Part shown: positions 8,684-62,456 of the stretch, one piece after another
Layout of the letters: each line of letters begins with the position of its first letter
Position numbering within the stretch: the stretch's first letter is position 1
NCBI GenBank assembly: GCA_945910005.1
Contig: OX246747.1
Coordinates: 14,826,746-14,890,745, forward strand
DNA: 64,000 nucleotides
Source: Isoperla grammatica
Taxonomy: Eukaryota; Arthropoda; Insecta; Plecoptera; Perlodidae
Reading direction: 5' to 3'
The notes under the pieces: model-generated
What the model saw: the letters and a program-made list of their open reading frames with translations, nothing else
Database searches by the model: none
Told to the model about the DNA's origin: nothing
Translations under genes and position numbers: made by a program

Positions 8684-8955
8684 CTGGTCGAGGAGGAGAA
8701 GTCAGACGAAATGCAGTCCACACCCCAATCCCCTTTCCGCCCCACTGTCCCATTGAATATTTGTCCTCCCACTTGGCCCTGCCCTCCCTTGCTGGACTCC
8801 CGTATGACGACTCACGCGACGTACAATGGATCTGATTCGGATGTTGCTTTATTCTTCATTATCATCTTTCTCATCTTCATTATCACCCGCTCATCGTCTC
8901 GATTAGCCATCGTTGCATAAATATGAGACGTTAAGCCCCATTCATCAATCAATCA
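8684..8955 (+). mobile_element. SINE-like / LINE-tail insertion with TCAATCAA tail
   Basis: A 272-bp insertion ending in CATCAATCAATCAA. It is bounded by a 12-bp direct repeat ACAATGTCTGTA at 8672-8683 and 8956-8967. The 3' half (TCCCATTGAATATTTRTCC, GAGACGTTAAGCCCC) recurs at 54480-54715 in plus and at 49594-49760 in minus orientation, so it is a dispersed family with a short tandem tail instead of poly(A). The open frame inside (8669-8920) starts before the element and is not a gene. Confidence 0.88.
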
Positions 8956-10335: not shown

Positions 10336-12585
10336 CATGCTCGTGTAGATGCTTCAAAAGGATTGGTCCTCCTCAATTGTGTCGCAATCATGGCCACTGT
10401 GAGGTCACGTGGGAACTATGAATAGGTACCTACACATTCTAAAAACAGAGAAATGTGTATGTCAAGGTAAGTAAACGATATTTATGTTCACACTTCGAAG
10501 TCATAGACGTATTACCACCATCTTTGAAGAAAGATAAGACCAACTCAGACAGGGCTTAAATTTTGGTCTCAAATGTTTGTTATTTATTAGGGTTTCCGTG
10601 GCTATGTGAAGGTCCGTATCAGCCAATGGCGTAGTGGTCCTAAAGTTAGGCCAGGCCTAAGTTAAGACTTTTTGTGAATCCGGGCCCTAGAGTACGAACT
10701 GTTTTAAGTGTTTCGGGAACGCATTTAAATAACTTTATAACACAAGGAATTAAACCTGTTTCTTTGATAATCTAGTCTTATTGGCTATAGATTCTATTGA
10801 ATGTTTGTTTTAAAGGTACAGTTGTTAAAAGATTAGGTCATCTTCTTACCAATAATCATTTTTATGTCTATGAAAAAATTGTATCAAAAACTTAGAAGCC
10901 ACAAATGTACGTCTATAAAAGGTGTTATATTTTATATTGCATTGCAAAATTGCAAAAATTGAGTAGTGGCGATTTTTTGCTACAAATATTCGTATGTAGT
11001 AGCTTGCTACTCGCTACTTTACTGCATTTTCAAAAGTAGCGCGCTACCAGTCTCGTTACCAGAAGAGTAACATGGTACTCCCCGCAAAGATTACAAACAA
11101 GTTTGTAACCTTACGACGACGAATGTCATTTTAAACGAATACAAACTAGTTTGTAGTCTTTGCTACAAGTAGCGCGCTACCTAACAACACTGATTATACA
11201 CATTGGGTGTCCGCTCCGTTTTCATATGTTAATGCCCGGAAGGTACTTAAACACCATTACATAGTACAATGAGTAAAATGTGCCCAAACAAGGTTTTGTG
11301 TCCGCTGAAACATGCTACATTTCTCGACGATATGAAACAGCGTCTGGCTGGGTGTTACATTGACGCCATGATCCTTTTGCTGCCCGTGTGCAGGCCTACC
11401 AACGTCTATAAACATCGTAGAACATCTTCGGTAATGCTTCCGTCACGGGTGGGTGAGCGGCAGCCAACCAGCGGCCATGGATAATTCAAATACCTGCTCG
11501 GGTTGGCCGAGACCGTAAACACGTCATTGATTGATGACGAAAGCACTACCGAAGTTATTGTAAGACAACTTTATTATGGGTTTCACTGCGATCCGCGAGC
11601 GCAAGAAATGGCACTGTCTCCAATTTGCCGACTGTTTGTGATTTTTTTTTTTTTTTCAACCCCTTAAGTCTTCTTTATGTTCACTTAGATTTACAAGTCC
11701 TTGCGCCATTATCTTGTCATTCAATCTTCCTCCGCTCAACGGTTGCAAACACTACCTTACCTTACATAAAGGGCTGACTGGTAAGGGGTTGCTAATTGTT
11801 CTCTTTGTATCCACTCCGACTACAATGACAAAATGCAAATTGTTCTTCGAAACAGAAATTCTAAGAAACCGGTCAGATCTGTGTAACGCTACAATTGGTA
11901 CGTTACAACATTCAGATTTGAGCTTGGCGGTTCCCACCCCAGAAGTTACGAATACCCGTCTTCAAGGTGATGTAGATACTGCACGATACGATACGAGTGC
12001 AGTAAAGACCTGTCGGTAAGCTACCTATGGCGGCCGGAAAAGGGGGCGTTTTTCGAGTTCTTGTTCGGGTATACTGCGTGTATAAGGCTCTGGGATGAAG
12101 ATAAGTAGCCGTTGTTGGCATAAAGATTATTAGTTATCGTAGTTTCGTTATTTTTCGTGGAGAAGAAACGTCTCATAGTGTGTCAAACTATGAAGTTATA
12201 TATTTTCTGTACACAAGGTGATTTTTGATACGGAGGTAAATAAGTATTCCTTATTATTTCGTTGGTGAAAAGTAAGTTAAGCTGGAGACAGTCGCTGTAT
12301 CCCGTAATTACCGCCGCATTCAGTTATTCTTCGCCAGCCAGTTGTCCACGATTTGGGAGTGGGGGCAACGCGAAGAGGCGGAAGTTCAACGCTACCCCAA
12401 TACTCGTCGTTTGTGTGTGGGGGACCGATACTTCCCGCTATCCAGGGATTCGCAAGAGGGATCAGGGAGCAGGGGAAGCCATTGGAACATCGTGCTGAAG
12501 ACGTCGCGACGCCACCGCTGCCGGACGCCGTCCTGGAACGCAGGGACACCCGTTCCAGTGGAGTAAAGCTAAGTGCCCCTGTTGG
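10336..12585. other. Long unassigned stretch with a hAT-like end
   Basis: No gene is supported. Near 10980-11192 there are GTAGCGCGCTAC phrases and an end reading ACAACACTG; its complement, CAGTGTTGTTAGGTAGCG, looks like a hAT terminus, but no matching left end was found. A 36-bp phrase at 10388-10423 recurs inverted at 32294-32329 with two mismatches. 12240-12585 is GC-richer, with overlapping open frames on both strands that show no protein I recognise. The last bases (about 12563-12585) match part of the 40-bp satellite found at 27524-31850. Confidence 0.4.
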
Positions 12586-12625
12586 TACCCTGCTTAAAAT
12601 TCCAGTTGAATACAGTTGGATACAT

Positions 12626-15600
12626 TCCACTTGAATACTGTTGAATACTGTTAAATCCAGTTCATGTTAAACTCAACTGGATTCAAGCGTGTTATGGCCC
12701 ACTTTTACGTATTCAACTGGAACTGTATCCAATGGGAAGCAAGTGGATTCAACAGGAACTGTAACCAACGGGATGCAACTGTAATCGTATTCAAATGGAA
12801 CCAACAGTATTCAACTGGATTCGTATTCAAAGGGAATCAACTGGAAACAGTAACCAACTGTATTCAAATGGAATCAACTGGAACCGAATCTAACCGTATT
12901 CAAGTGGAATCAACTGGAACAGTAACCAACTGTATTCAAATGGAACCGTATCCAACCGTATTCAAGTGGAATCAACTGGAACAGTAACCAACTGTATTCA
13001 GCTGGGTACGTATCCAATGGGAATCAACTGTAATCAACTGGAACCGTAACCAGCTGTATTTAGCAGGGTACGTTTTCAATGGGAATCAACTGTAATCAAC
13101 TGGAACCGTAACAAACTGTATTCAGCTGGGTACGTATCCAATGGGAATCAACTGTAATCAACTGGAACCGTAACCAGCTGTATTTAGCAGGGTAGTATTC
13201 AATGGGAATCAACTGTAATCAACTGGAACCGTAAAAAACTGTATTCAGCCAGGTACGTATCCAATGGGAATCAACTGTAATCAACTGGAACCGTAACAAA
13301 CTGTATTCAGCTGGGTACGTATCCAATGGGAATCAACTGTAATCAACTGGAACCGTAAAAAACTGTATTCAGCTAGGTACGTATCCAATGGGAATCAACT
13401 GTAATCAACTGGAACCGTAAAAAACTGTATTCAGCTAGGTACGTATCCAATGGGAATCATATGTAATCAACTGGAACCGTAACAAACTGTATTCAGCTGG
13501 GTACGTATCCAATGGGAATCAACTGTAATCAACTGGAACCGTAAAAAACTGTATTCAGCTAGGTACGTATCCAATGGGAATCAACTGTAATCAACTGGAA
13601 CCGTAAAAAACTGTATTCAGCTTGGTACGTATCCAATGGGAATCAACTGTAATCAACTGGAACCGTAAAAAACTGTATTCAGCTAGGTACGTATCCAATG
13701 GGAATCATATGTAATCAACTGGAACCGTAACAAACTGTATTCAGCTGGGTCCGTATCCAATGGGAATCAACTGTAATCAACTGGAACCGTAAAAAACTGT
13801 ATTCAGCTAGGTACGTATCCAATGGGAATCATATGTAATCAACTGGAACCGTAACAAACTGTATTCAGCTGGGTACGTATCCAATGGGAATCAACTGTAA
13901 TCAACTGGAACCGTAAAAAACTGTATTCAGCTAGGTACGTATCCAATGGGAATCAACTGTAATCAACTGGAACCGTAAAAAACTGTATTCAGCTTGGTAC
14001 GTATCCAATGGGAATCAACTGTAATCAACTGGAACCGTAAAAAACTGTATTCAGCTAGGTACGTATCCAATGGGAATCATATGTAATCAACTGGAACCGT
14101 AACAAACTGTATTCAGCTGGGTACGTATCCAATGGGAATCAACTGTAATCAACTGGAACCGTAAAAAACTGTATTCAGCTTGGTACGTATCCAATGGGAA
14201 TCAACTGTAATCAACTGGAACCGTAAAAAACTGTATTCAGCTAGGTACGTATCCAATGGGAATCATATGTAATCAACTGGAACCGTAACAAACTGTATTC
14301 AGCTGGGTACGTATCCAATGGGAATCAACTGTAATCAACTGGAACCGTAAAAAACTGTATTCAGCTAGGTACGTATCCAATGGGAATCAACTGTAATCAA
14401 CTGGAACCGTAAAAAACTGTATTCAGCTAGGTACGTATCCAATGGGAATCAACTGTAATCAACTGGAACCGTAACAAACTGTATTCAGCTGGGTAAGTAT
14501 CCAATGGGAATCAACTGTAATCAACTGGAACCGTAACCAGCTGTATTTAGCAGGGGACGTATTCAATGGGAGTCAACTGTAATCAACTGGAACCGTAACA
14601 AACTGTTTTCAGCTGGGTACGTATCTAATGAGAGTCAACTGTAATCAACTGGAACCGTAACCAGCTGTATTTAGCAGGGTAGTATTCAATGGGAATCAAC
14701 TGTAATCAACTGGAACCGTAACCAGCTGTATTTAGCAGGGGACGTATTCAATGGGAGTCAACTGTAATCAACTGGAACCGTAACAAACTGTTTTCAGCTG
14801 GGTACGTATCCAATGAGAGTCAACTGTAATCAACTGGAACCGTAACCAGCTGTATTTAGCAGGGTAGTATTCAATGGGAATCAACTGTAATCAACTGGAA
14901 CCGTAACAAACTGTATTCAGCTGGGTACGTATCCAATGGGAATCAACTGTAATCAACTGGAACCGTAACCAGCTGTATTTAGCAGGGGACGTATTCAATG
15001 GGTATCAACTGTAATCAACTGGAACCGTAACAAACTGTTTTCAGCTGGGTACGTATCCAATGAGAGTCAACTGTAATCAACTGGAACCGTAACCAGCTGT
15101 ATTTAGCAGGGTAGTATTCAATGGGAATCAACTGTAATCAACTGGAACCGTAACAAACTGTATTCAGCTGGGTACGTATCCAATGGGAATCAACTGTAAT
15201 CAACTGGAACCGTAACCAGCTGTATTTAGCAGGGTAGTATTCAATGGGAATCAACTGTAATCAACTGGAACCGTAAAAAACTGTATTCAGCTAGGTACGT
15301 ATCCAATGGGAATCAACTGTAATCAACTGGAACCGTAACCAGCTGTATTCAAGTGGAATCAACTGGAACAGTAACCAACTGTATTAAAATGAAACCGTAT
15401 TCAAGTGGAATCAACTGGAACAGTAACCAACGTATTTAAATAGAACCGTATCCAACCGTATTCAAGTGGAATCAACTGGAACCGTAACCAACTGTATTCA
15501 AATGGAACCGTATCCAACCGTATTCAAGTGGAATCAACTGGAACAGTAACAAACTGTATTCAGCAGGGTACGTATTCAATGGGAATCAACTGTAATCAAC

Positions 15601-16472
15601 TGGAACCGTAACCAGCTGTATTTAGCAGGGTACGTTTTCAATGGGAATCAACTGTAATCAACTGGAACCGTAACAAACTGTATTCAGCTGGGTACGTATC
15701 CAATGGGAATCAACTGTAATCAACTGGAACCGTAACCAGCTGTATTAAGCAGGGTAGTATTCAATGGGTATCAACTGTTATCAACTGGAACCATAACAAA
15801 GTGTATTCAGCTGGGTACGTATCCAATGGGAATTAACTGTAATCAACTGGAACCATAACCAGCTGTATTTAGCAGGGTACGTATTCAATGGGAATCAACT
15901 GTAATCAACTGGAACCGTAACCAACCTGTATTCAAGTGGAATCAACTGAAACAGTAACCAACTGTATTAAAATGAAACCGTATCCAACCGTATTCAAGTG
16001 GAATCAACTGAAACAGTAACCAACTGTATTCAAATGGAACCGTATCCAACCGTATTCAAGTGGGATCAACTGGAACAGTAACCAACTGTATTAAAATGAA
16101 ACCGTATCCAACCGTATTCAAGTGGAATCAACTGAAACAGTGACCAACTGTATTTAAATGGAACCGTATCCAACCGTATTCAAGTGGGATCAACTGGAAC
16201 AGTAACCAACCGTATCCAACCGTATTCTAGTGGAATCAACTGGAACAGTAACCAACTGTATTAAAATGAAACCATATCCAGCCGTATTCAAGTGGCATCA
16301 ACTGGAACTGTAACAAACTGAATTAAAATGAAACCGTATCCAAACTTATTCAAGTGGAATCAACTGGAACCGTAACCAACCGTATTCAAGTGGAATCTAC
16401 TAGAACCCTAACCAGCAGTATTCAACTGGAATCAACAGGATTTGTATAAAACGGAACAACAGGAACTGGAAC
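12626..16472 (+). repeat. 62-bp satellite, left arm
   Basis: Successive copies of TCAACTGGAACCGTAA lie 62 bp apart (for example 13281, 13343, 13405). The unit also contains GTATTCAGCTGGGTACG and CCAATGGGAATCAACTG. A variant with CATATG recurs at multiples of 124 or 248 bp, so there is four-unit higher-order structure. Units at both edges (12640-13000, 15340-16470) are shorter and more diverged. Short open frames here are by-products of the repeat. Confidence 0.95.
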
Positions 16473-16679
16473 TGTAATATCTTGTGCTGTACCTAGGATA
16501 CATATTAGTAAATAATCAACGACAATATGTATGGATATACAATTTATTATGATAACATGAGAGATACAAAAGTGACGACTATCATGTCCATGACGAAAAC
16601 CGGAAGTGCTTTCCTCCCGTCTCGACAAGATACAGCTTGCTAGATATAATTGTAGTTGTTGTTATCCTCAATTACTACA
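16473..16679 (-). repeat. 3' LTR of the outer element (207 bp)
   Basis: Begins TGTAATATC and ends TTACTACA on the plus strand, giving TGTA...TACA ends. The same sequence with indels and substitutions recurs at 23465-23659. It contains AACCGGAAGTGCT and CAGCTTGCTAGATAT in both copies. The far end of the right-hand copy (CCTCAATTACTACA) is missing. Confidence 0.8.
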
Positions 16680-16689
16680 CCTTTCCTTT

Positions 16690-17049
16690 TCAAAGATTGA
16701 ACCAAATACATGATACAAATACACACATAACACAACTTTTGTTACCCAGCGTTAATAACACCGTGTTTGTTGGTTTAAGCCCCTTTAAGCTACATTGGCT
16801 TAATTTATTGTAAGTAGCCAGCAGCAACACATTTACTTCCGCTCCAGTGTCTATTTTGAATGACACACGTTTACTTCCTAGCCACAATTTGTGATACCAT
16901 GCTGATCGGGATAGACCTTTACTAATATCTCCCGACCCAATGTAAGCAAAGTCATCTTGCGAATTCACCTCACTTTGTTCCACTGCATGCATAGCCGACA
17001 TTTTACATACCTTTGCGAAATGATTTTTTCCTTTACACTTCATGCACAC
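16690..17049 (-). pseudogene. Zinc knuckle and aspartic protease remnant (outer element)
   Basis: Read from right to left the frame gives the second half of a CCHC knuckle (CKGKNHFAKVC), a linker, and a retroviral-type aspartic protease whose active site IDTGAEVNVL follows WLGSKRVSF. The frame continues to about 16690 and then meets the purine tract and LTR, so everything downstream of the protease is gone. The first part of the same knuckle lies 5.2 kb away at about 22298-22360, beyond the inner element. The family layout (Gag, knuckles, protease) is that of gypsy elements of the Mag/SURL type; the clade is inference. Confidence 0.8.
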
Positions 17050-17229
17050 TGTTATGTTTTTACACACACATGACTATTTCTGCAAGGATAATCGGAGGGA
17101 CGAAATACAACGACACATTTAGCTGGACGCCATTACAAGACAACGTTTATTATCCCCGCCACCAGAGTGCATACATGAGCATTAAGATAAGGCGCACTAT
17201 TTGAATGTGATAACTAGCAATACATAACA
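17050..17229 (-). repeat. 3' LTR of the inner gypsy element (180 bp)
   Basis: TGTTATG...ATAACA ends; identical by eye to 22113-22292. It is an unusually short LTR. The adjoining purine tract on the right (17231-17241) is where plus-strand priming would occur in this family. Confidence 0.92.
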
Positions 17230-17230
17230 C

Positions 17231-17241
17231 TCCTTTCCCTT
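17231..17241 (-). other. Polypurine tract of the inner element
   Basis: Minus-strand AAGGGAAAGGA, two bases from the 3' LTR edge. Position and composition fit the plus-strand primer site of LTR retrotransposons. Confidence 0.75.
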
Positions 17242-17330
17242 CAAAAGAGTGTTGACATACATTTCTTCATGTAATGAATAACTAGACTACTACAGATTTG
17301 AAACACAGGTTACTTTTTTTTGTTTTATAT

Positions 17331-20300
17331 TTACAAATCTAATCTTTGAGGAGCCTTGCGGTTCCGCCCAGACCTTCTTATGTCCGGTTCCGTAGGACAT
17401 TCATATGTGTCCGTAGGAGACTCACTCACTAGATTCGGATTCACAGATGTGTTTTCCGGCTCCGGATTCACACTTGAACCTACCGGACTTGGTTTATTAA
17501 AAACACAGGGTGAATTAAGTACACTCTTGGGTAACCCAGGTTTCAGTGTTTGATCCACCAAGGGTAATTGTGAGCGCCTCAGATGATCGGCATGTACCAA
17601 TCTGATTTTATCCCGCACCCACACTAGGTACGTTACAGAGCTGATTCTCTGTTTCACCTCACCTACCAACCAATTCAATCCTCTTTCCTTAGTTGGTCCT
17701 ACCGACTTTACTAGGACTTGTTCACCTTCCTCAAATTCTGTTGGTTTATACATCTGTTTATGTGAACCATTGCTCTGGGTCATTATGTTGGTACTATGTT
17801 TTTGCAACGTAACACTTAGATTGGGTTTGAGCATATCCAACTTGGTTCGGGGTTTATACTTTAACATGATATCTACAGGTGATAGATTTGTGGCAGTATT
17901 AGGGGTGTTCCTGAAACTGAATAGGAAATTGTCAATTTTATGTTGGAGTGACATGTCACGCCCTTGATCAAATTTGTCAACATTTACATTAAACTTGTTC
18001 AGGACATGTTTAAGGGTTTGCACACCTCGTTCTGCAGCACCGTTCGAAGCTGGGTGGTAAGGCGGACTATGCAGCACACTGATACCATTCCTTCCACAAA
18101 AATCATTGAATTCTGATGAAGTAAAGGGTGGACCATTGTCAGTGACAATGGTTTCCGGGAACCCGAAGACAGAAATCACCTTCCTAAGCTTACTTATCAC
18201 CTGAGCTGCATTAGTTGACTTCATTATCCATACTTCAATCCACTTAGAATAGCTGTCAACTAACACTAGAAACGTCACATTATCCTTTTGAGCAAAATCC
18301 AAATGGATTCGCTGCCAGTGTTTGACAGGTGTTGGCCAGTTTGTCAAAGGGACAGCTGTGTTTGTGGAACGAGTGACTACACAAGCTTCGCATTCGGATA
18401 TATTTCGTTCAATATCCGCGTCTAAGCCCGGCCACCACACATGGCTTCTTGCCAACATTTTAGATCGAACCACACCAGGGTGATTTTCATGTAACAAGGA
18501 GAGTACATGATCACGCAACTTTACAGGAATGATTACCCTATTTCCCCACAACACACAGTTTCCGTCTAGTGACAGTTCATGTCTTCGAATAAAGTAGGGT
18601 TTTAAGCCTGGAATCTCAACATGCATCGGCCAGCCTTGTTGAGTGAGTGTATACACACGGGACAACATGGGATCTTGCCTAGTAGCATTTGCAATATCTT
18701 TTGCACTACAGGGACACTGCTGGAATGTTGAGGTTAAAGATTCACAAATCAACTTCACTGGACAAGAAATACTTTTGAACTCTTCTACGCCGTCACTTTG
18801 CATTGGTAAGCGGGACATAGCATCAGCTGAGGAAAGCTCTTTGCCTCTCCTGTACTCAATATCGTACTGGTAAGAAGACAATATAATCGTGCACCTTTGG
18901 AGACGTGCAGCTGCGAGGGTTGGAATTCCCTTTTTACTGCCAAGTATCGCCTTTAAAGGCTGGTGATCCGTTACTAGACGGAACTTACGCCCATAAAGAT
19001 ACTTATGGAAACGCTTGACAGCGAAGATAATACTCAAAGCCTCCTTCTCCACCTGTGCATATCCCTGCTCTGCATGGTTTAAGGTTGAGGACGCAAACAT
19101 TACAGGTCGCTCTTCACCATCCACAAGGTGCGACAGGACAGCGCCTACTCCATATTGTGAAGCATCACTCGATACTACAATGGGTTTTTGGGGATCATAT
19201 GGCACAAGAACCTGATTCTCTAGCAGCAATTGCTTGCTAAGCTCAAAAGCTTCTTTACAATCCTTGGACCAATGCCAAGTTACACCCTTTTCCAGTAGCC
19301 GGTGTAATGGTTTGATTTTCATCGACAGGTTTGGCAAAAATCTGTTGTAAAAATTTAACAACCCTAGAAAAGACTGTAGCTGTGTGACATTTGATGGTTC
19401 AGGGGCTTGCGAAATAGCTCTAATTTTCTCAGGGGTGGGATGGATACCACACTGATCAATTAGATGACCTAGGAATTCGATACTAGATTTGAAGAACCGA
19501 CATTTAGAAGCGTTAACTCTGATGGAATACCTTTCCAACCTTTGGAGAACTAACAACAAGATTCTTTTGTTTTCTTCCAAAGTCTCTCCCAGAATTAGTA
19601 TATCATCTAAATAAGCGAGGACATTGGGTATGCCCTTTAACACCTGATCGATCACTGATTGGAATATGGCTGGGGCACTCGTTACTCCAAAAGGTAACCT
19701 TGTAAACTGGTACAAGCCCAAATGGGTATTGATGGTAAGAATGTGTTGAGACCGTTTTGTTAACTTCAATTGAAGATAAGCACTTGAAAGGTCTAACACG
19801 GTGAACACCTTTGCTTTTGCCAGTGAGGCCAGAATATCATCCACGCGTGGCAGTGGGTAATGTTCCGTGTCTATGCACCTGTTCACCGTGACCTTGTAGT
19901 CAACACATAAGCGAATTTTATCCGAATCTTTCTTGGGGACAACTACTACAGGAGAAGCCCATTCGCTCCGTTTGACAGGTCTAAGGGTACCGGTTTCCAC
20001 TAGCCGCTCAATTTCATCGTTAACCTTTTCTCTCAGGGCATAGGGAACATTGTACGCTTTATGAAAAATTGGAATTGCATCATCTTTAAGGACAACATCA
20101 GCCACAAATTCTTTAATGGACGACGCCTCACTCCCCTTGAAAACGTTTGAAAACTTCTTCTGAAGCTGACTAACATCCTCAAAACTATCGAGACATTGCA
20201 AAGAATTTACCGCAGTACAACTTCCTGACAACTGTTTCCTCCAATCGGGATATAGAACATTCAACCAAGATCTTCCCATCAGGGGTGTAAAATCGTGCAC

Positions 20301-21848
20301 CTGCGCAACGATTAAGGGTAAACTATGAACTACCTGATTGGAACTATGAGAGTTTGCTACCGACACTTGTATCTCACCATAGATTTTTAGGTTTTCACCA
20401 AGAACTGATTTCAGTTTCAACTCAGACTGCGTACATGGCACATCAGAGAAAAACTCATGATACATCTCATCTGAGATTATCGATTTTGCAGAACCACTGT
20501 CTACCTCCATTTTGACAATCTTATTATTGACAGACACTGGAATCAACAACGGTTCTTTCCTTACCTTATCAACTGTGTTTGAGGAACACTTGACATTATG
20601 TTTTGACACAATATTGACATTTTCGACATTACTATCACTTGATTTGACATCAACATCACTTTGACTTGACATGACATTGACACTTTCACTTTGACTTGAC
20701 ATGACATTGACACTATCGCTTGACTTGACATCAATATCACTTTGACTTGACACGACATTGACATTATCGCTTGACATAACATTGACACTTTCACCTTGAC
20801 TTGACATGACATTGACACTTTCACTTTGACTTGACATGACATTGACACTTTCACTTTGACTTGACATGACATTGACACTTTCACTTCGACTTGACATGAC
20901 ATTGACACTTTCACTTTGACTTGTCACAACAGAGACATTCTTAATGGCACACGAATCGTCACTTTCACACTCGGTGGTTGACGACTCTGCAGACCGATCT
21001 TGACATGATTCATTTTTGACGTTCTTGACGTTCTTTCGACGGTGGCACATGCGTGATGTATGACCAATCGCGTTGCACTTGTAACATGTCCACTCCTTGG
21101 CTGGACACTTGTCCTCCGAATGGAAACGTCCACACCTTCGACATTGAAGATTTGACTTGGAACTGGACTCTTCCTTACTTGAGTTGGATTGCGACTGGGC
21201 CGACTTCGTCTCCTTAGCCTTGGCTTTTCCTTGCTTGGAGCGGGACTTTTCTCCCTTGGAATACTGTCCACGGCTCTTAGACACTTTCTTTACCTCCTCC
21301 TGACTAGGGTGAAGGAGCTTGGCATGACTCATTGCCAGTTCTAAACCGCGAGCGATTTTGCATGCTTTTTCAAAAGATAGCTCATCCTCACAGTTCAATA
21401 GCTGTCGCTGAGTTTCCTCGTCCTTGATCCCACACACAAATCTATCACGGAGTGCCCGATCAAGATAGGAACCGAAATTGCAAGTGATGGCGAGACGCTT
21501 TAATTCAACTATGTAGTTGTCGACTGATTCGCCCTCCAATTGGTTGCGCTTTCCGAATTTGAAAACCTCAGCAATGACAGACTTGGCTGGCGCAAAATGT
21601 GCCTGTAGAGCGGACACTAGTGCCGTGTACGACTTCCCTTGGGGGGTATCTGGACTTAAAATGGACTTTAACGTCGAATAGAGTTTAGCTCCCATAAGCG
21701 TTAAAAATATAGAAGCTTTCTTTACCTCAGTGGAAACTTCGTTTGCCTTGAAAAACTCTTCTAGGCGTTCCGCGTATGACTGAAAATCTTCCAACTGGGG
21801 ATCGAACTCGTCAACTTTTCCGATAAAACCCATCTTGGCACTGGACAA
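17331..21848 (-). CDS. Gag-Pol polyprotein, gypsy (Ty3) type, 1505 aa
   Basis: A single uninterrupted frame with no frameshift between Gag and Pol. Order: Gag (about 1-230, with DNYIVELKRLA); two zinc knuckles, CRRCGRFHSEDKC near 236 and CYKCNAIGHTSRMC near 255; a Ser-rich stretch of ten-residue repeats, SQSESVNVMS, at about 305-403; aspartic protease with the active site VDSGSAKSI (Asp near 450; DSG where many relatives have DTG); RT with LPFGVTSAP and YLDD near 746; RNase H with SSDASQYG; integrase with HENH near 1120, CEAC, and the catalytic Asp/Asp/Glu pattern (HLDFA, VTDNGPPF, NGAAERG). It ends about 100 bp before the 3' LTR. The start ATG was chosen because it is the first in a frame beginning ~265 bp after the 5' LTR and leads into Gag. 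All parts needed for autonomous retrotransposition appear present; activity is inference. The ten-residue repeats are unusual. Confidence 0.95.
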   Translation of the reverse strand: MSSAKMGFIGKVDEFDPQLEDFQSYAERLEEFFKANEVSTEVKKASIFLTLMGAKLYSTLKSILSPDTPQGKSYTALVSALQAHFAPAKSVIAEVFKFGKRNQLEGESVDNYIVELKRLAITCNFGSYLDRALRDRFVCGIKDEETQRQLLNCEDELSFEKACKIARGLELAMSHAKLLHPSQEEVKKVSKSRGQYSKGEKSRSKQGKAKAKETKSAQSQSNSSKEESSSKSNLQCRRCGRFHSEDKCPAKEWTCYKCNAIGHTSRMCHRRKNVKNVKNESCQDRSAESSTTECESDDSCAIKNVSVVTSQSESVNVMSSRSESVNVMSSQSESVNVMSSQSESVNVMSSQGESVNVMSSDNVNVVSSQSDIDVKSSDSVNVMSSQSESVNVMSSQSDVDVKSSDSNVENVNIVSKHNVKCSSNTVDKVRKEPLLIPVSVNNKIVKMEVDSGSAKSIISDEMYHEFFSDVPCTQSELKLKSVLGENLKIYGEIQVSVANSHSSNQVVHSLPLIVAQVHDFTPLMGRSWLNVLYPDWRKQLSGSCTAVNSLQCLDSFEDVSQLQKKFSNVFKGSEASSIKEFVADVVLKDDAIPIFHKAYNVPYALREKVNDEIERLVETGTLRPVKRSEWASPVVVVPKKDSDKIRLCVDYKVTVNRCIDTEHYPLPRVDDILASLAKAKVFTVLDLSSAYLQLKLTKRSQHILTINTHLGLYQFTRLPFGVTSAPAIFQSVIDQVLKGIPNVLAYLDDILILGETLEENKRILLLVLQRLERYSIRVNASKCRFFKSSIEFLGHLIDQCGIHPTPEKIRAISQAPEPSNVTQLQSFLGLLNFYNRFLPNLSMKIKPLHRLLEKGVTWHWSKDCKEAFELSKQLLLENQVLVPYDPQKPIVVSSDASQYGVGAVLSHLVDGEERPVMFASSTLNHAEQGYAQVEKEALSIIFAVKRFHKYLYGRKFRLVTDHQPLKAILGSKKGIPTLAAARLQRCTIILSSYQYDIEYRRGKELSSADAMSRLPMQSDGVEEFKSISCPVKLICESLTSTFQQCPCSAKDIANATRQDPMLSRVYTLTQQGWPMHVEIPGLKPYFIRRHELSLDGNCVLWGNRVIIPVKLRDHVLSLLHENHPGVVRSKMLARSHVWWPGLDADIERNISECEACVVTRSTNTAVPLTNWPTPVKHWQRIHLDFAQKDNVTFLVLVDSYSKWIEVWIMKSTNAAQVISKLRKVISVFGFPETIVTDNGPPFTSSEFNDFCGRNGISVLHSPPYHPASNGAAERGVQTLKHVLNKFNVNVDKFDQGRDMSLQHKIDNFLFSFRNTPNTATNLSPVDIMLKYKPRTKLDMLKPNLSVTLQKHSTNIMTQSNGSHKQMYKPTEFEEGEQVLVKSVGPTKERGLNWLVGEVKQRISSVTYLVWVRDKIRLVHADHLRRSQLPLVDQTLKPGLPKSVLNSPCVFNKPSPVGSSVNPEPENTSVNPNLVSESPTDTYECPTEPDIRRSGRNRKAPQRLDL
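20640..20935 (-). repeat. 30-bp coding minisatellite inside gag-pol
   Basis: About ten copies of a 30-bp unit, plus-strand form TTGACTTGACATGACATTGA, encode the SQSESVNVMS repeats. Copies differ by substitutions and by a shorter DVKSSDSVN variant, all in multiples of three so the frame stays open. Confidence 0.9.
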
Positions 21849-22099
21849 TGTAGACAGACAACCTCAGACAGACACTTTCCAAGACGGTATAACTTGTACT
21901 TGGTCCTAGGCCGAAACACGATCGGACAGGCTAGGCCTAAGGTTACTGCCCTTGGAACAATCTCGAACCGACGCGATGACGCCCCCGTGGCTTGGGCCTA
22001 CCTGTTGCATCATTTCACTGGACACAACTGAGTACTGACATTGAACCTCGCCGACGGACCAAAATGTATTCACGAGCACTGTGGGTTTTTTAAAGACTA

Positions 22100-22109
22100 C
22101 TCGTCGCCA
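22100..22109 (-). other. Candidate primer-binding site of the inner element
   Basis: Minus-strand TGGCGACGAG, three bases inside the 5' LTR. TGG is the usual start, since it pairs with a tRNA CCA end; I did not identify which tRNA. Confidence 0.55.
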
Positions 22110-22112
22110 AAC

Positions 22113-22292
22113 TGTTATGTTTTTACACACACATGACTATTTCTGCAAGGATAATCGGAGGGACGAAATACAACGACACATTTAGCTGGACGCCATTACA
22201 AGACAACGTTTATTATCCCCGCCACCAGAGTGCATACATGAGCATTAAGATAAGGCGCACTATTTGAATGTGATAACTAGCAATACATAACA
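22113..22292 (-). repeat. 5' LTR of the inner gypsy element (180 bp)
   Basis: Partner of 17050-17229, identical by eye. Followed on the right by the 5-bp duplication CACAC and the interrupted knuckle codons of the outer element. Confidence 0.92.
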
Positions 22293-22297
22293 CACAC

Positions 22298-22991
22298 TTT
22301 ACCGTAAGCTGGGCACTTTCTCGGCTTGTGGCGGTATCCACATCTCTTGCAATCAAAGGAGTCGTTCTTGCTTTCTTCACCACTTGCGCTGGAACTTGCG
22401 TTCGTAGGACCTTGTTCGACTGCTTTTTATCTTGTCCTTTGCTGTATTGTTGACCTATGACGTTCCGCACTGCATCTACTGCGTGCGGCTGCTGCTTCTT
22501 CTTGGGACCTCACTGTAGTGTTGGTTTCTCGAAGGGACTGTACTTGCTGCTTAGGTACTTGCTTCTGCGGCTCTGGATATTTGAACACACTGGTCTAAGG
22601 CAATGCCTCCTTCTGACAACAGTTTCTCTTGTAGAGGGTTGCTCCTTAGGCCAAGGCCTATTATTAACAGGTCTCGGATGATGCTGTCACGTAACTGTCC
22701 TAGCTCACACGTGGATGCGCGATCTCTTAACTCGGTTATGAATTCGTCGACACTCATATCCTGTTGTTGAGACACCCTGAAGAAATTATTTCTTTCAATT
22801 GCCTAGTTTTTGTGAGGTTAACAATAACCCGCGAACTTGTCAATCACATGTTTCAGCACTTTTTTCTGGTCATCGTTCTCGAAAGTTAGTGTGTTAAACA
22901 CGCGAACTGCGTCATATCCTAGGCATATCAGATTTAGGAATATTTGTAATTTAACCTCTTCTGGCTTCTTGGTTTTCTCGGACGCTGCCAT
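22298..22991 (-). pseudogene. Broken gag of the outer element
   Basis: From ATG 22991-22989 the frame reads a Gag N-terminus (AASEKTKKPEEVKLQIFLNL, then GYDAVRVFNTL) and stops near 22818. It resumes in another register at about 22800 with SVDEFITELRDRASTCE and IIRDLLIIGL, a Gag motif shared by gypsy elements, then a basic linker and a first zinc knuckle (CKRCGYRHKPRKC). The first Cys of the next knuckle is the last coding feature before the inner element's duplication. Several frame breaks and a missing segment near 22780-22815 mark it as dead. Confidence 0.8.
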
Positions 22992-23253
22992 CATTGGGTT
23001 TGAAATATAGGCTAGGCCTAGGTCTTCAAACACAATGCTGCCATGTATAGCCTAGGCCTAGGCCTAGGTCTATCTCAAACTGCTGGATCTAGTCTGTCCA
23101 GCTAGGCCTAGGCCTATGTGCTACCTGTTTAGCCAGTTTAGCTTCCATATTGAGAGCTGGTGGTACGCTCTCAACAAAACGTGGTCTGCTACTTGTGAGG
23201 TTATGTTGTGACACCTCACTTGTAACTCTCTTAACTGTTCACTTCTAACACCA

Positions 23254-23659
23254 TGTAATAGGCCTATCTTATGCTGTATCAAGGATACATCTTAGTAAAT
23301 ACTCAACGATAGTAGGTCTAAGACGCCTCTTTTCTACCTTCTAACACACGTTTTTCCGTGGCGTAGGCCTAGGCTTACGCTCTCGACAAAATGTGGTCTG
23401 CTACTTGTGAGGTTATGTTGTAGTACCTTACTTGTAACTCTCTAAATATTCACTTCTGACACCATATCTTGTGCTGTATCTAGGATACATCTTAGTATAT
23501 AATCAACGACAATGTATTGATAAAGATATGATTTAATATGATAACTTGAGAGAAACAAAAGTGACGACTAGGCCTAGGCCTATCACGCGTTCACACCCAT
23601 GACGGAAACCGGAAGTGCTGAGACACAGCTTGCTAGATATGATTGTTGTTGTTGTTATC
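23254..23659 (-). repeat. 5' LTR region of the outer element, partly duplicated
   Basis: An LTR-end copy begins TGTAATA at 23254 directly next to a primer-site-like CACTTCTAACACCA (23240-23253), but runs only ~60 bp. The leader phrase ACTTGTGAGGTTATGTTGT then repeats (23191 and 23404), followed by a second primer-type site (23451-23464) and a fuller LTR copy from 23465. This is a tandem duplication of leader plus LTR edge. TAGGCC hexamers interrupt it near 23568-23582. Confidence 0.65.
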
Positions 23660-26600
23660 TAAAAGGGAATCAAATGGATTCCAACCGGATTCAACAGGAA
23701 CTGGAACCAACTTTAAAAGGAAGTGTCTGTTATTATATCATGAGAATCCCATTGAATACATATGCAGATAAATATAGTTGGTTACGGTTCCAGTAGATTC
23801 CCATAGAATACATACCAAGTTAAATACAGTTGGTCACGGTTGCAGTTGATTACAGTTGATTCCCATTAAATACGTACACAGTTAAATAATACAGCTGGTA
23901 ACGGTTCCAGATTCCCATTGAATACATACACAGCTGAATACAGTTTGTTACAGTTCCAGTTGATTTCAGTTGATTCCCATTGAATACGTACCCAGCTGAA
24001 TACGGTTTGTTACGGTTCCAGTTGATAACAGTTGATTCCCATTGAATACGTACCCTGCTAAATACAGCTGGTTACGGTTCCAGTTGATTACAGTTGATTC
24101 CCATTGGATACGTAGTGGTATTACGTACCCAGCTGAATACAGTTTGTTACGGTTCCAGTTGATAACAGTTGATTCCCATTGGATACGAACCCAGCTGAAA
24201 ACAGTTTGTTACGGTTCCAGTTGATTCCAGTTGATTCCCATTAGATACGTACCCAGCTGAATACAGTTTGTTACGGTTCCAGTTGATTACAGTTGATTCC
24301 TATTGGATACGTATCCAGCTGAATACGGTTTGTTACGGTTCCAGTTGATTACAGTTGATTCCCATTGAATACGTACCCTGCTAAATACAGCTGGTTACGG
24401 TTCCAGTTGATAAGAGTTGATTCCCATTGAATACGTTGGTTCCACTTGATTCCAGTTGATTCCCATTGAATACGTACCCAGCTAAATACAGTTTGTTAGA
24501 GTTCCAGTTGATTACAGTTGATTCCCATTGGATACGTACCCTGCTAAATACAGCTGGTTACGGTTCCAGTTGATTACAGTTGAGTCCCATTGGATACGTA
24601 CCTAGCTGAAAACAGTTTGTTACGGTTCCAGTTGATTACAGTTGATTCCCATTGAATACGTACCCTGCTAAATACAGCTGGTTACGGTTCCAGTTGATTA
24701 GAGTTGATTCCCATTGAATTCGTTGGTTCCACTTGATTCCAGTTGATTCCCATTGAATACGTACCCAGCTAAAGACAGTTTGTTAGAGTTCCAGTTGATT
24801 ACAGTTGATACCCATTGGATTCGTATTACGTACCCAGCTGAATACAGTTTGTTACGGTTCCAGTTGATTCCAGTTGATTCCCATTGAATACGTACCCAGC
24901 TGAATACAGTTTGTTACGGTTCCAGTTGATAACAGTTGATTCCCATTGGATACGAACCCAGCTGAAAACAGTTTGTTACGGTTCCAGTTGATTCCAGTTG
25001 ATTCCCATTAGATACGTACCCAGCTGAATACAGTTTGTTACGGTTCCAGTTGATTACAGTTGATTCCTATTGGATACGTATCCAGCTGAATACGGTTTGT
25101 TACGGTTCCAGTTGATTACAGTTGATTCCCATTGAATACGTACCCTGCTAAATACAGCTGGTTACGGTTCCAGTTGATAAGAGTTGATTCCCATTGAATA
25201 CGTTGGTTCCACTTGATTCCAGTTGATTCCCATTGAATACGTACCCAGCTAAATACAGTTTGTTAGAGTTCCAGTTGATTACAGTTGATTCCCATTGGAT
25301 ACGTACCCTGCTAAATACAGCTGGTGACGGTTCCAGTTGATTACAGTTGAGTCCCATTGGATACGTACCTAGCTGAAAACAGTTTGTTACGGTTCCAGTT
25401 GATTACAGTTGATTCCCATTGAATACGTACCCTGCTAAATACAGCTGGTTACGGTTCCAGTTGATTAGAGTTGATTCCCATTGAATTCGTTGGTTCCACT
25501 TGATTCCAGTTGATTCCCATTGAATACGTACCCAGCTAAAGACAGTTTGTTAGAGTTCCAGTTGATTACAGTTGATTCCCATTGGATTCGTACCCAGCTA
25601 AAGACAGTTTGTTAGAGTTCCAGTTGATTCCAGTTGATTCCCATTGAATACGTACCCAGCTAAAGACAGTTTGTTAGAGTTCCAGTTGATTCCAGTTGAT
25701 TCCCATTGAATACGTACCCAGCTAAAGACAGTTTGTTAGAGTTCCAGTTGATTCCAGTTGATTCCCATTGAATACGTACCCAGCTAAAGACAGTTTGTTA
25801 GAGTTCCAGTTGATTCCAGTTGATTCCCATTGAATACGTACCCAGCTAAAGACAGTTTGTTAGAGTTCCAGTTGATTACAGTTGATACCCATTGGATTCG
25901 TATTACGTACCCAGCTGAATACAGTTTGTTACGGTTCCAGTTGATTCCAGTTGATTCCCATTGAATACGTACCCAGCTGAATACAGTTTGTTACGGTTCC
26001 AGTTGATTCCAGTTGATTCCCATTGGATACGAACCCAGCTGGGTACAGTTTGTTACGGTTCCAGTTGATTCCAGTTGATTCCCATTAGATACGTACCTAG
26101 CTGAATACAGTTTGTAACGGTTCCAGTTGATTACAGTTCATTCCTATTGGATACGTATCCAGCTGAATACGGTTTGTTACGGTTCCAGTTGATGACAGTT
26201 GATTCCCATTGAATACGTACCCTGCTAAATACAGCTGGTTACGGTTCCAGTTGATAAGAGTTGATTCCCATTGAATACGTTGGTTCCACTTGATTCCAGT
26301 TGATTCCCATTGAATACGTACCCAGCTTAATACAGTTTGTTAGAGTTCCAGTTGATTACAGTTAATTCCCATTGGATACGTACCCTGCTAAATACAGCTG
26401 GTTACGGTTCCAGTTGATTACAGTTGAGTCCCATTGGATACGTACCTAGCTGAAAACAGTTTGTTACGGTTCCAGTTGATTACAGTTGATTCCCATTGAA
26501 TACGTACCCTGCTAAATACAGCTGGTTACGGTTCCAGTTGATTAGAGTTGATTCCCATTGAATTCGTTGGTTCCACTTGATTCCAGTTGATTCCCATTGA

Positions 26601-27483
26601 ATACGTACCCAGCTAAAGACAGTTTGTTAGAGTTCCAGTTGATTACAGTTGATACCCATTGGATTCGTATTACGTACCCAGCTGAATACAGTTTGTTACG
26701 GTTCCAGTTGATTCCAGTTGATGCCCATTGAATACGTACCCAGCTAAATACTGTTTGTTACGGTTCCAGTTGATTCCAGTTGATTCCCATTGAATACGTA
26801 CCCTGCTAAATACAGCTGGTTACGGTTCCAGTTGATTACAGTTGATTCCCATTGAATACGTACCCTGCTAAATACAGCTGGTTACGGTTCCAGTTGATTA
26901 CAGTTGAGTCCCATTGGATACGTACCTAGCTGAAAACAGTTTGTTACGGTTCCAGTTGATTACAGTTGATTCCCATTGAATACGTACCCAGCTAAATACA
27001 GCTGGTTACGGTTCCAGTTGATTACAGTTGATTCCCATTGAATACGTATCCAGCTGAATACAGTTTGTTACGGTTCCAGTTGATTACAGTTGATTCCCGT
27101 TGGATACGTATCCAGCTGAATACAGTTGGTTACGGTTCCAGTTGATTACAGTTGATTCCCATTGAATACGTACCCTGCTAAATACAGCTGGTTACGGTTC
27201 CAGTTGATTACAGTTGATTCCCATTAGATACGTATCCAGCTGAATACAGTTTGTAACGGTTCCAGTTGATTACAGTTGATTCCCATTGAATACGTATCCA
27301 GCTGAATGCAGTTTGTTACGGTTCCAGTTGATTACATTTGATTCCCATTGGATACGTATCCAGTTGAATACTGTTTGTTACGGTTCCAGTTGATTACAGT
27401 TGATTCCTGTTGGTATACATACGACTTCCAGTTGGAAACAGCTAGCACAGTTGAATACGTTTGCATCCAGTTGAATACGTCTC
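23660..27483 (-). repeat. 62-bp satellite, right arm (inverted)
   Basis: The same 62-bp unit as 12626-16472 in reverse complement: TTCCAGTTGATTACAGTTGA and GTACCCAGCTGAATACAG. The first ~50 bp (23660-23710) still read in the left-arm orientation (GGATTCAACAGGAACTGGAAC), so the symmetry centre lies near 23710-23750, to the right of the LTR element. Blocks with ATACGTTGGTTCCACTTG recur at ~24430, 25200 and 26275, showing higher-order duplication. Confidence 0.95.
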
Positions 27484-27523
27484 ATGTATCCAACTGTATT
27501 CAACTGGAATTTTAAGCAGGGTA

Positions 27524-30500
27524 GTACCGGGAGAGTGAGTAAAGCTTAGTGCCCCTGTTGGTAGTACCGGGAGAGTGAATAAAGCCAAGTGCCCCTGTTG
27601 GTAGTACCGGGAGAGTGAGTAAAGCTAAGTGCCCCTGTTGGTAGTACCGGGAGAGTGAGTAAAGCTAAGTGCCCCTGTTGGTAGTACCGGGAGAGTGAGT
27701 AAAGCTAGGTGCCCCTGTTGGTAGTACCAGGAGAGTGAGTAAAGCTAAGTGCCCCTGTTGGTAGTACCGGGAGAGTGAGTAAAGCTAAGTGCCCCTGTTG
27801 GTAGTACCGGGAGAGTGAGTAAAGCTAAGTGCCCCTGTTGGTAGTACCGGGAGAGTGAGTAAAGCTAGGTGCCCCTGTTGGTAGTACCGGGAGAGTGAGT
27901 AAAGCCAAGTGCCCCTGTTGGTAGTACCGGGAGAGTGAGTAAAGCTAAGTGCCCCTGTTGGTAGTACCGGGAGAGTGAGTAAAGCTAAGTGCCCCTGTTG
28001 GTAGTACCGGGAGAGTGAGTAAAGCTAAGTGCCCCTGTTGGTAGTACCGGGAGAGTGAGTAAAGCTTAGTGCCCCTGTTGGTAGTACCGGGAGAGTGAGT
28101 AAAGCTAAGTGCCCCTGTTGGTAGTACCGGGAGAGTGAGTAAAGCTAAGTGCCCCTGTTGGTAGTACCAGGAGAGTGAGTAAAGCTAAGTGCCCCTGTTG
28201 GTAGTACCGGGAGAGTGAGTAAAGCTAAGTGCCCCTGTTGGTAGTACCGGGAGAGTGAGTAAAGCTTAGTGCCCCTGTTGGTAGTACCGGGAGAGTGAGT
28301 AAAGCTAAGTGCCCCTGTTGGTAGTACCGGGAGAGTGAGTAAAGCTAAGTGCCCCTGTTGGTAGTACCAGGAGAGTGAGTAAAGCTAAGTGCCCCTGTTG
28401 GTAGTACCGGGAGAGTGAGTAAAGCTAAGTGCCCCTGTTGGTAGTACCGGGAGAGTGAGTTAAGCTAAGTGCCCCTGTTGGTAGTACCGGGAGAGTGAGT
28501 TAAGCTAGGTGCCCCTGTTGGTAGTACCGGGAGAGTGAGTAAAGCTAAGTGCCCCTGTTGGTAGTACCGGGAGAGTGAGTTAAGCTAAGTGCCCCTGTTG
28601 GTAGTACCGGGAGAGTGAGTTAAGCTAGGTGCCCCTGTTGGTAGTACCGGGAGAGTGAGTAAAGCTAAGTGCCCCTGTTGGTAGTACCGGGAGAGTGAGT
28701 TAAGCTAGGTGCCCCTGTTGGTAGTACCGGGAGAGTGAGTAAAGCTAAGTGCCCCTGTTGGTAGTACCGGGAGAGTGAGTAAAGCTAAGAGCCCCTGTTG
28801 GTAGTACCGGGAGAGTGAGTAAAGCTAAGAGCCCCTGTTGGTAGTACCGGGAGAGTGAGTAAAGCTAAGTGCCCCTGTTGGTAGTACCGGGAGAGTGAGT
28901 AAAGCTAAGTGCCCCTGTTGGTAGTACCGGGAGAGTGAGTAAAGCTAAGTGCCCCTGTTGGTAGTACCGGGAGAGTGAGTAAAGCTTAGTGCCCCTGTTG
29001 GTAGTACCGGGAGAGTGAGTAAAGCTAAGTGCCCCTGTTGGTAGTACCAGGAGAGTGAGTAAAGCTAAGTGCCCCTGTTGGTAGTACCGGGAGAGTGAGT
29101 AAAGCTAAGTGCCCCTGTTGGTAGTACCGGGAGAGTGAGTAAAGCTAAGTGCCCCTGTTGGTAGTACCAGGAGAGTGAGTAAAGCTAAGTGCCCCTGTTG
29201 GTAGTACCGGGATAGTGAGTAAAGCTAAGTGCCCCTGTTGGTAGTACCGGGAGAGTGAGTGAAGCTAAGTGCCCCTGTTGGTTGTACCGGGAGAGTGAGT
29301 AAAGCTAAGTGCCCCTGTTGGTAGCACCGGGAGAGTGAGTAAAGCTAAGTGCCCCTGTTGGTAGTACCGGGATAGTGAGTAAAGCCAAGTGCCCCTGTTG
29401 GTTGTACCGGGAGAGTGAGTAAAGCCAAGTGCCCCTGTTGGTTGTACCGGGAGAGTGAGTAAAGCTAAGTGCCCCTGTTGGTAGTACCGGGAGAGTGAGT
29501 AAAGCCAAGTGCCCCTGTTGGTAGTACCGGGAGAGTGAGTAAAGCCAAGTGCCCCTGTTGGTTGTACCGGGAGAGTGAGTAAAGCTAAGTGCCCCTGTTG
29601 GTAGTACCGGGAGAGTGAGTAAAGCCAAGTGCCCCTGTTGGTAGTACCGGGAGAGTGAGTAAAGCTAAGTGCCCCTGTTGGTAGTACCGGGAGAGTGAGT
29701 AAAGCTAAGTGCCCCTGTTGGTAGTACCGGGAGAGTGAGTAAAGCTAAGTGCCCCTGTTGGTAGTACCGGGAGAGTGAGTAAAGCTAAGTGCCCCTGTTG
29801 GTAGTACCGGGAGAGTGAGTAAAGCCAAGTGCCCCTGTTGGTAGTACCGGGAGAGTGAGTAAAGCTAAGTGCCCCTGTTGGTAGTACCGGGAGAGTGAGT
29901 AAAGCTAAGTGCCCCTGTTGGTAGTACCGGGAGAGTGAGTAAAGCCAAGTGCCCCTATGTTGGTAGTACCGGGAGAGTGAGTAAAGCTAAGTGCCCCTGT
30001 TGGTAGTACCGGGAGAGTGAGTAAAGCCAAGTGCCCCTGTTGGTAGTACCGGGAGAGTGAGTAAAGCCAAGTGCCCCTGTTGGTAGTACCGGGAGAGTGA
30101 GTAAAGCCAAGTGCCCCTGTTGGTTGTACCGGGAGAGTGAGTAAAGCTAAGTGCCCCTGTTGGTAGTACCGGGAGAGTGAGTAAAGCCAAGTGCCCCTGT
30201 TGGTAGTACCGGGAGAGTGAGTAAAGCCAAGTGCCCCTGTTGGTAGTACCGGGAGAGTGAGTAAAGCTAAGTGCCCCTGTTGGTAGTACCGGGAGAGTGA
30301 GTAAAGCTAAGTGCCCCTGTTGGTAGTACCGGGAGAGTGAGTAAAGCTAAGTGCCCCTGTTGGTAGTACCGGGAGAGTGAGTAAAGCTAGGTGCCCCTGT
30401 TGGTAGTACCGGGAGAGTGAGTAAAGCCAAGTGCCCCTGTTGGTAGTACCGGGAGAGTGAGTAAAGCTAAGTGCCCCTGTTGGTAGTACCGGGAGAGTGA

Positions 30501-31850
30501 GTAAAGCTAAGTGCCCCTGTTGGTAGTACCGGGAGAGTGAGTAAAGCTAAGTGCCCCTGTTGGTAGTACCGGGAGAGTGAGTAAAGCTAAGTGCCCCTGT
30601 TGGTAGTACCGGGAGAGTGAGTAAAGCCAAGTGCCCCTGTTGGTAGTACCGGGAGAGTGAGTAAAGCTAAGTGCCCCTGTTGGTAGTACCGGGAGAGTGA
30701 GTAAAGCCAAGTGCCCCTGTTGGTAGTACCGGGAGAGTGAGTAAAGCTAAGTGCCCCTGTTGGTAGTACCGGGAGAGTGAGTAAAGCTAAGTGCCCCTGT
30801 TGGTAGTACCGGGAGAGTGAGTAAAGCTAAGTGCCCCTGTTGGTAGTACCGGGAGAGTGAGTAAAGCTAGGTGCCCCTGTTGGTAGTACCGGGAGAGTGA
30901 GTAAAGCCAAGTGCCCCTGTTGGTAGTACCGGGAGAGTGAGTAAAGCTAAGTGCCCCTGTTGGTAGTACCGGGAGAGTGAGTAAAGCTAAGTGCCCCTGT
31001 TGGTAGTACCGGGAGAGTGAGTAAAGCCAAGTGCCCCTGTTGGTAGTACCGGGAGAGTGAGTAAAGCCAAGTGCCCCTGTTGGTAGTACCGGGAGAGTGA
31101 GTAAAGCTAAGTGCCCCTGTTGGTAGTACCGGGAGAGTGAGTAAAGCTAAGTGCCCCTGTTGGTAGTACCAGGAGAGTGAGTAAAGCTAAGTGCCCCTGT
31201 TGGTAGTACCGGGAGAGTGAGTAAAGCTAAGTGCCCCTGTTGGTAGTACCGGGAGAGTGAGTAAAGCTAAGTGCCCCTGTTGGTAGTACCGGGATAGTGA
31301 GTAAAGCTAAGTGCCCCTGTTGGTAGTACCGGAAGAGTGAGTAAAGCTAAGTGCCCCTGTTGGTAGTACCGGGAGAGTGAGTAAAGCTAAGTGCCCCTGT
31401 TGGTAGTACCGGGAGAGTGAGTAAAGCCAAGTGCCCCTGTTGGTAGTACCGGGAGAGTGAGTAAAGCTAAGTGCCCCTGTTGGTAGTACCGGGAGAGTGA
31501 GTAAAGCTAAGTGCCCCTGTTGGTAGTACCGGGAGAGTGAGTAAAGCTAAGTGCCCCTGTTGGTAGTACCGGGAGAGTGAGTAAAGCTAAGTGCCCCTGT
31601 TGGTAGTACCGGGATAGTGAGTAAAGCTAAGTGCCCCTGTTGGTAGTACCGGGAGAGTGAGTAAAGCTAAGTGCCCCTGTTGGTTGTACCGGGAGAGTGA
31701 GTAAAGCTAAGTGCCCCTGTTGGTAGTACCGGGAGAGTGAGTAAAGCTAGGTGCCCCTGTTGGTAGTACCGGGAGAGTGAGTAAAGCTAAGTGCCCCTGT
31801 TGGAAGTACCGGGAGAGTGAGTAAAGCCAAGTGCCCCTGTTGGTAGTACC
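27524..31850 (+). repeat. 40-bp satellite, about 108 copies
   Basis: The unit starts GTAGTACCGGGAGAGTGAG, continues TAAAGCTAAG and ends TGCCCCTGTTG. Period is 40 bp with almost no indels; a 2-bp insertion (CCCCTATGTTGG) at about 29957 shifts register once. Recurrent point variants (GCTTAG, GCTAGG, GCCAAG, ACCAGG, GGATAG, GTTGTACC) are mixed along the array. The minus-strand open frames (29305-29628, 29987-30190, 30507-30710) exist only where GCCAAG replaces GCTAAG and removes a stop, so they are not genes. Confidence 0.97.
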
Positions 31851-42277: not shown

Positions 42278-42360
42278 ACCGCGCCTACCAACTCTAACAA
42301 GCGGTGCATCACAAAGCTCACAACAACCACAACCCGCCCAAACCTAACCTAACTGACACA

Positions 42361-43296: not shown

Positions 43297-43323
43297 AGAA
43301 CTGGAGAAAGAACTGTTTTACAG

Positions 43324-44268: not shown

Positions 44269-44536
44269 TGTGTCAGTTAGGTTAGGTTTGGGCGGGTTGT
44301 GGTTGTTGTGAGCTTTGTGATGCACCGCTTGTTAGAGTTGGTAGGCGCGGTGTGTCGTGGATCGAGGTGGCGGTGAAGGGGGTGTGTCTGTGTCAGCTGT
44401 CAGGTTTGCGAGCAGTTTGATTTCGCCCGTTGAAGAGCTCTGATCAGGGCTCGAAATATTGCGGTTTAATTGTTTGATCTTGACAAGGAACAGTGTATAG
44501 TCCAACTTCTAGGTTTTATATAATGTTTTTTCATTA

Positions 44537-48580: not shown

Positions 48581-48582
48581 TC

Positions 48583-49583: not shown

Positions 49584-49593
49584 GATTCTTGTT

Positions 49594-62104: not shown

Positions 62105-62456
62105 TTGGCAAAAAGGGAATATGAGGCCTTCAAGTTTATTAACATTAACTATGAATTTTAAAAATTTGAAAAAAATTGTAGAATAAAGCTAAGGTGTTAA
62201 TCTGCTAGGTTTTCTAGTCAGCAACATAGTTTCTCAACTTAACAATGCTTTAATAAATATTTTAATTGTTGTGCTATCAGGATAATGATAAGGAACCAGG
62301 ATAATGACTTAAAATACAGCTTGTAGTTCTCATGTGAGCATATAAATATTTAAATAATTGAGAGTACAGTAGTTATTGACTTGGAAGTGAATTTAAGTGG
62401 TTACTTGAATTTATACAAATTCAAAGTTATTTTTATTCAGACTTATTATCATTAAC

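Follow-up and report, generated by a model that had tools for sequence, protein, structure and literature searches.

Mirrored arms of tandem repeats are a hallmark of some DNA transposons. In Foldback (FB) of Drosophila melanogaster and in TU of the sea urchin these arms consist of nested shorter repeats and the target duplications are 8-9 bp long, while Galileo duplicates a target other than TA. The duplication of TA on insertion is a trait of the Tc1/mariner superfamily. Here we describe an element at 12588-27521 of a 64,000-nucleotide stretch of Isoperla grammatica DNA (contig OX246747.1, hereafter the window). It has mirrored tandem-repeat arms like FB and TU, but is flanked by TA instead of their longer duplications. 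It is probably a non-autonomous foldback DNA transposon with arms grown from its own ends, inserted at a TA and later invaded by two long terminal repeat (LTR) retrotransposons.

The nearest precedent seen is Tetris from Drosophila virilis. In the excerpted text of PMC4079207, Tetris is a non-autonomous foldback without apparent coding capacity, and its inverted repeats are partly tandem. A 37-bp stretch (~80%) is common to its outer end domain and its tandem unit, from which its authors suggest that the repeats came from the end; Tetris is also a source of long satellite arrays. The element described here is likewise a non-autonomous foldback with tandem-repeat arms and a resemblance between end and repeat. 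However, Tetris has ~220-bp repeats, a flanking end domain of up to 866 bp and a middle domain, whereas here a TA, a 62-bp repeat, a 38-bp end and almost no middle are found. The target duplications of Tetris measure 8-10 bp and its authors suggest the Mutator superfamily, to which the same excerpts mostly tie the foldback architecture. The fly and sea-urchin foldbacks are cited there too.

In Galileo (P superfamily), interspecies conservation is limited to ~40 bp at the tips and further transposase binding sites were identified in the tandem repeats, according to the excerpts of PMC3688188. Its copies hold P-type transposase remnants and binding itself was studied, whereas the present locus is read from sequence alone. 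A table row of a review (PMC9659126) gives a Tc1/mariner miniature inverted-repeat transposable element (MITE) containing a satellite in Xenopus tropicalis. This is also a TA-type, non-autonomous element with tandem repeats, but its satellite lies within the MITE and does not form both arms of a palindrome. A TA-duplicating foldback with satellite arms was not among the titles and abstract openings listed by full-text searches; most subscription papers lie outside such searches, so absence is unproven. A full-text search for parts of the end combined with transposon terms returned no papers.

Ends, target site and satellite arms

The locus is composed of the following parts (window positions; strand in brackets):
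12557-12587 (plus): 31-bp remnant of a 40-bp satellite unit, left of the insertion
12586-12587 (unstranded): TA, left copy of the putative target-site duplication
12588-12625 (plus): left terminal inverted repeat, 38 bp, reverse complement of 27484-27521
12626-16476 (plus): left satellite arm of 62-bp monomers, 44 of them full, with the end-like motif inverted relative to the left end
16477-23659 (minus): older LTR retrotransposon within the left arm, close to the centre, with LTRs at 16477-16666 and 23464-23659
17050-22292 (minus): young Ty3/gypsy-type LTR retrotransposon, inside the older one, with LTRs at 17050-17229 and 22113-22292
23660-23712 (plus): continuation of the left arm past the retrotransposons (left-arm matches on the plus strand: 43 bp at 81%, 39 bp at 79%)
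23713-23743 (unstranded): palindrome pivot, nearly the only sequence of the element that is not arm
23744-27483 (minus): right satellite arm, mirrored 62-bp monomers, 52 of them full
27484-27521 (minus): right terminal inverted repeat, 38 bp
27522-27523 (unstranded): TA, right copy of the putative target-site duplication
27520-31852 (plus): 40-bp satellite array in which the element is inserted, ~108 copies with 97% matches (Tandem Repeats Finder, whose coordinates overlap the last bases of the element)

The two 38-bp ends are exact reverse complements of each other, over 40 bp when the flanking TA is included. The left flank reads ...CCCCTGTTGGTA and the right flank TAGTACCGGG...; when the element and one TA are deleted, the 40-bp unit is regained over 68 bp, apart from one indel and one mismatch. 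Perfectly inverted ends and flanks that share a TA and rejoin at it into the 40-bp unit had both been claimed in the first-pass annotation, and both are borne out. Exact ends at both borders, together with the rejoining of the flanks within one unit, would be an unlikely product of chance. The TA stands in the context GG-TA-GT and the ends of the element start with CC.

On the left, only 31 bp of the 40-bp satellite are kept before other sequence begins, which places the insertion in the outermost unit of the ~108-copy array. The units adjoining the element are about as diverged as the remainder of the array (94 units compared). By our own arithmetic, the outermost unit would be hit with about one chance in a hundred if all units were equal targets; alternatively, the array may have expanded or been lost on one side.

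Inward of each end follows one 62-bp tandem repeat in mirror orientation, as the first-pass annotation had described, spanning ~12.9-16.4 kb and 23.7-27.4 kb. The autocorrelation of the arms peaks at 62 bp and more weakly at 10, 26 and 36 bp. The left-arm sequence resumes past the retrotransposons and the orientation flips at ~23713-23743, both of which support the foldback reading; by a weaker match the left-arm orientation reaches 23722. A perfect-centre palindrome scan at the pivot found nothing. The sole listed reading frame of at least 100 codons (stop-to-stop) in the arms, 12655-12987 with 110 codons, is satellite.

The two arms are ~81% alike. Their monomers were compared in a set of 96 near-full-length plus-strand matches above 30 bits, out of 212 nhmmer matches, with partial, weak and minus-strand matches left out. 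The arm consensuses are identical at 60 of 61 bases. Mean monomer identity is 0.912 within the left arm, 0.885 within the right and 0.891 between them, averages that barely separate the arms. Even so, 43 of 44 left and 48 of 52 right monomers (91/96) have their nearest neighbour in their own arm, where we would expect about half without sorting. As the consensuses agree and yet the nearest neighbours sort by arm, the arms appear to have a common origin and to have been homogenised apart. A recent inverted duplication of one arm is unsupported, since the monomers group by arm and no colinear register between the arms stands out among the 96. Within the right arm, multi-monomer blocks recur at 24047-26737 (tandem-repeat rows of 39, 101 and 163 bp at similar spacings), a sign of larger duplications inside that arm.

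The retrotransposons account for 7.2 kb of the 14.9-kb span. The young one has identical 180-bp LTRs and a 5-bp duplication, CACAC, on both outer sides. Its reading frame (17331-21863, 1510 codons) carries integrase domains (Pfam) in one piece, and another piece has 2462 relatives, with reverse transcriptase domains (PF00078) in all 120 listed. The older one measures ~1.9 kb without the young insert and is too short for a full pol. By eye, its reading frame 16690-17073 has a zinc knuckle and a protease-like motif, and a Pfam search of this frame returned 0 families. Its minus orientation is presumed from a primer-binding-like stretch that we recognised beside the right LTR. The older LTRs differ at 14 of 172 aligned bases (8.1%), with 42 further gap positions. 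Had the 38-bp ends drifted like this pair, their identity would have p ~0.04, which hints mildly at a later movement, at conversion or at constraint.

Because these 7.2 kb are later insertions, the 14.9-kb span is rejected as the transposed unit. Without them the element measures about 14934 - 7183 = 7751 bp, with arms of ~3.9 and 3.8 kb and a pivot of ~20-30 bp. In the first-pass annotation, a 14.9-kb palindromic satellite seemed to have moved or been inserted as a unit; its foldback structure agrees with the findings, while its size has to be reduced to ~7.75 kb.

Likeness of the monomer to the element end

What is new here, and had not been noticed in the first-pass annotation, is that the 62-bp monomer resembles the element's own end plus TA, and that this likeness invariably runs opposite to the end next to it. 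Taken with its TA, the end (40 bases) can be aligned to the monomer as three blocks, between which the monomer has 13 and 10 extra bases. The alignment to the monomer consensus scores 42.7 for the TAGCAGGG variant and 37.7 for the common variant. The maxima of mononucleotide shuffles were 28.1 and 27.4 (3000 each), and 5000 dinucleotide shuffles over both variants reached 32.2 at most, with a 99.9th percentile of 26.0. Among 5000 40-mers from the window, the highest score against the TAGCAGGG variant was 25.3.

The individual monomers behave alike. Scored in up to 140 bases of context each, all 96 reach at least 30.0 when read in reverse to the true end beside them, and 19.0 at most in the same orientation. 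The 9-mer AGC[AT]GGGTA, which joins the tip to the TA, occurs in 60 of the 96 monomers; in 36.6 kb outside the element it was found in neither form on either strand (four 9-mers). The inner part of the end is satellite-like at 18 of 19 bases.

Other features of the window

At 42278-44351 lies a palindrome with almost no spacer and 99.2% self-complementarity, with the same reading frame in each arm (318 and 327 codons). We take this frame to be Penelope-like; among the matches listed (120 of 823), its relatives carry PF26215, PF00078 and sometimes PF01541. The structure may be a natural inverted pair or an artefact of fold-back assembly. A fragment of a piggyBac-type transposase is found at 62623-63690; its best relative is 56% identical over 90% of the length. 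The named relatives of the Penelope-like, piggyBac-type and reverse transcriptase frames are mostly from animals, none above 57% identity among the matches listed.

A 17-bp satellite occupies ~5.6 kb (2347-7955) and contains a 213-codon reading frame (4976-5617), for which a Pfam search gave no family. Three pairs of dispersed repeats in the window are 90-94% alike: 8732-8955 and 54492-54714, 49150-49591 and 61652-62107, and 48332-48586 and 56225-56474. Scans of the window with Rfam (gathering threshold) and for tRNAs returned nothing.

Identity and origin of the element

Long inverted arms of tandem repeats with little or no coding middle mark the element as a foldback. The TA duplication of Tc1/mariner elements is present, in one copy, and suggests, by inference only, a transposase of this type. 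No transposase of its own was found inside the element; the enzyme domains recognised there belong to an LTR retrotransposon. Several other assignments were tried and rejected. Membership in piggyBac, which targets TTAA, does not agree with flanks reading GGTA and TAGT. A Helitron or Helentron carrying satellite does not fit the 38-bp inverted ends and the TA, as these elements have neither inverted repeats at both ends nor a target duplication. A Mutator-type foldback such as Tetris would need a duplication of 8-10 bp, and only TA is duplicated here. Finally, ISL2EU (PHIS superfamily), the other group considered whose duplication is 2 bp long, duplicates AT within A-AT-T and its ends usually begin with GG, as given in the excerpts of PMC4482050, which matches neither the GG-TA-GT target nor the ends starting with CC.

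Outside the insect, exact matches of three element patterns numbered 0 in viral contigs. An 18-base part of the end matched 17 loci in prokaryote genomes, 12 of them sharing one cyanobacterial stretch, with only 21-25 of the 38 bases in agreement. By our own arithmetic 7-8 chance matches are expected from the size of the collection, and these loci are therefore taken as unrelated.

The formation of the element can be pictured as follows. The arms most likely arose from the ends, through small internal gains (13 and 10 bases) and subsequent tandem amplification of the end plus TA, and the resulting half would have been doubled into a palindrome. Unequal exchange may then have made the monomers uniform within each arm, independently of the other arm, without any divergence between the true ends. 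A transposase encoded elsewhere, presumably of Tc1/mariner type, would have bound the 38-bp ends and excised the unit, which would have been inserted at a TA of the outermost 40-bp unit in the array. The two LTR retrotransposons entered later, one within the other.

A number of observations weigh against this reading. The mobility of the element rests on one copy, and a 2-bp duplication is weak evidence when taken alone. The foldback family with TA targets proposed in the first-pass annotation agrees with the foldback form, the satellite arms and the TA target; as for a family, neither a second insertion nor a transposase was found, one copy having been examined within the window. That satellites disperse by this route, as also proposed there, stays a conjecture on the basis of one copy. 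The arms are not colinear copies, and no target duplication could be recognised at the borders of the older retrotransposon. Among the monomers, the lowest score (30.0) falls short of the top dinucleotide shuffle (32.2, of 5000), and the monomer contexts are slightly longer than the consensus used for the shuffles. The outermost 14 bases alone fail against their own dinucleotide shuffles (19.0 and 14.0, with a 99th percentile of 24.0), so that the likeness of end and monomer comes mainly from the inner block. In the placement test over all 96 monomers, 8 of 3000 control 14-mers reach a mean at least as high and 2 of 3000 a count of strong matches at least as high. Furthermore, the 10-bp addition coincides with one of the repeat periods of the arms, but no 13-bp period stands out. 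The direction may also have been the reverse, from satellite to end.

The satellite-like inner part of the end (18/19 bases), with arms that are almost wholly satellite and lack a core, could also be read as a rearranged satellite array, an inverted duplication by template switching or break repair that never moved as a unit and whose ends are ordinary satellite. This is improbable, as it leaves unexplained the identical 38-bp ends at both borders, the TA on both sides and the rejoining of the flanks in one 40-bp unit. The separate homogenisation of the arms is also what would be expected if two single-ended units, each with one end and an array, stood head to head and mimicked one element, whether or not their outer ends cooperate. 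Taken alone, each half does read as a single end with, behind it, an array of end-like monomers in inverse orientation to that end. However, the pivot has only ~30 bp, in which no copy of the end was seen by eye, and the outer flanks form one target site; such a pair is highly improbable. An inverted join introduced during assembly of the repeats has to be considered as well, since long tandem arrays are hard to assemble. A simple fold-back misassembly is made unlikely by the arms, which are only ~81% alike and carry monomer variants of their own, and with the exact ends and target site we see hardly any likelihood of an assembly artefact.

If, in line with the preferred reading of a foldback transposon with arms grown from its ends, the monomers were copied from the end, then end, array, palindrome and target site can all be observed side by side at this locus, and relatives flanked by TA, with arms of whatever length, are predicted. 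It would extend the foldback architecture to a TA-using transposase. A further, rather doubtful, idea is that the arms represent about a hundred degenerate transposon ends, many with TA and inverted relative to the true end of their own arm. Because of this inversion and the TA that is often kept, a monomer could act as an alternative second end; the transposase could pair the true end with any monomer and so move satellite of variable length. If true, the satellite would provide its own stock of alternative ends and directly serve the dispersal of satellite, within a superfamily that targets TA and for which no such case was among the titles and abstract openings listed. The birth and spread of satellites is an old question, and this element, examined in one copy, probably connects transposon ends with the origin of satellite DNA.
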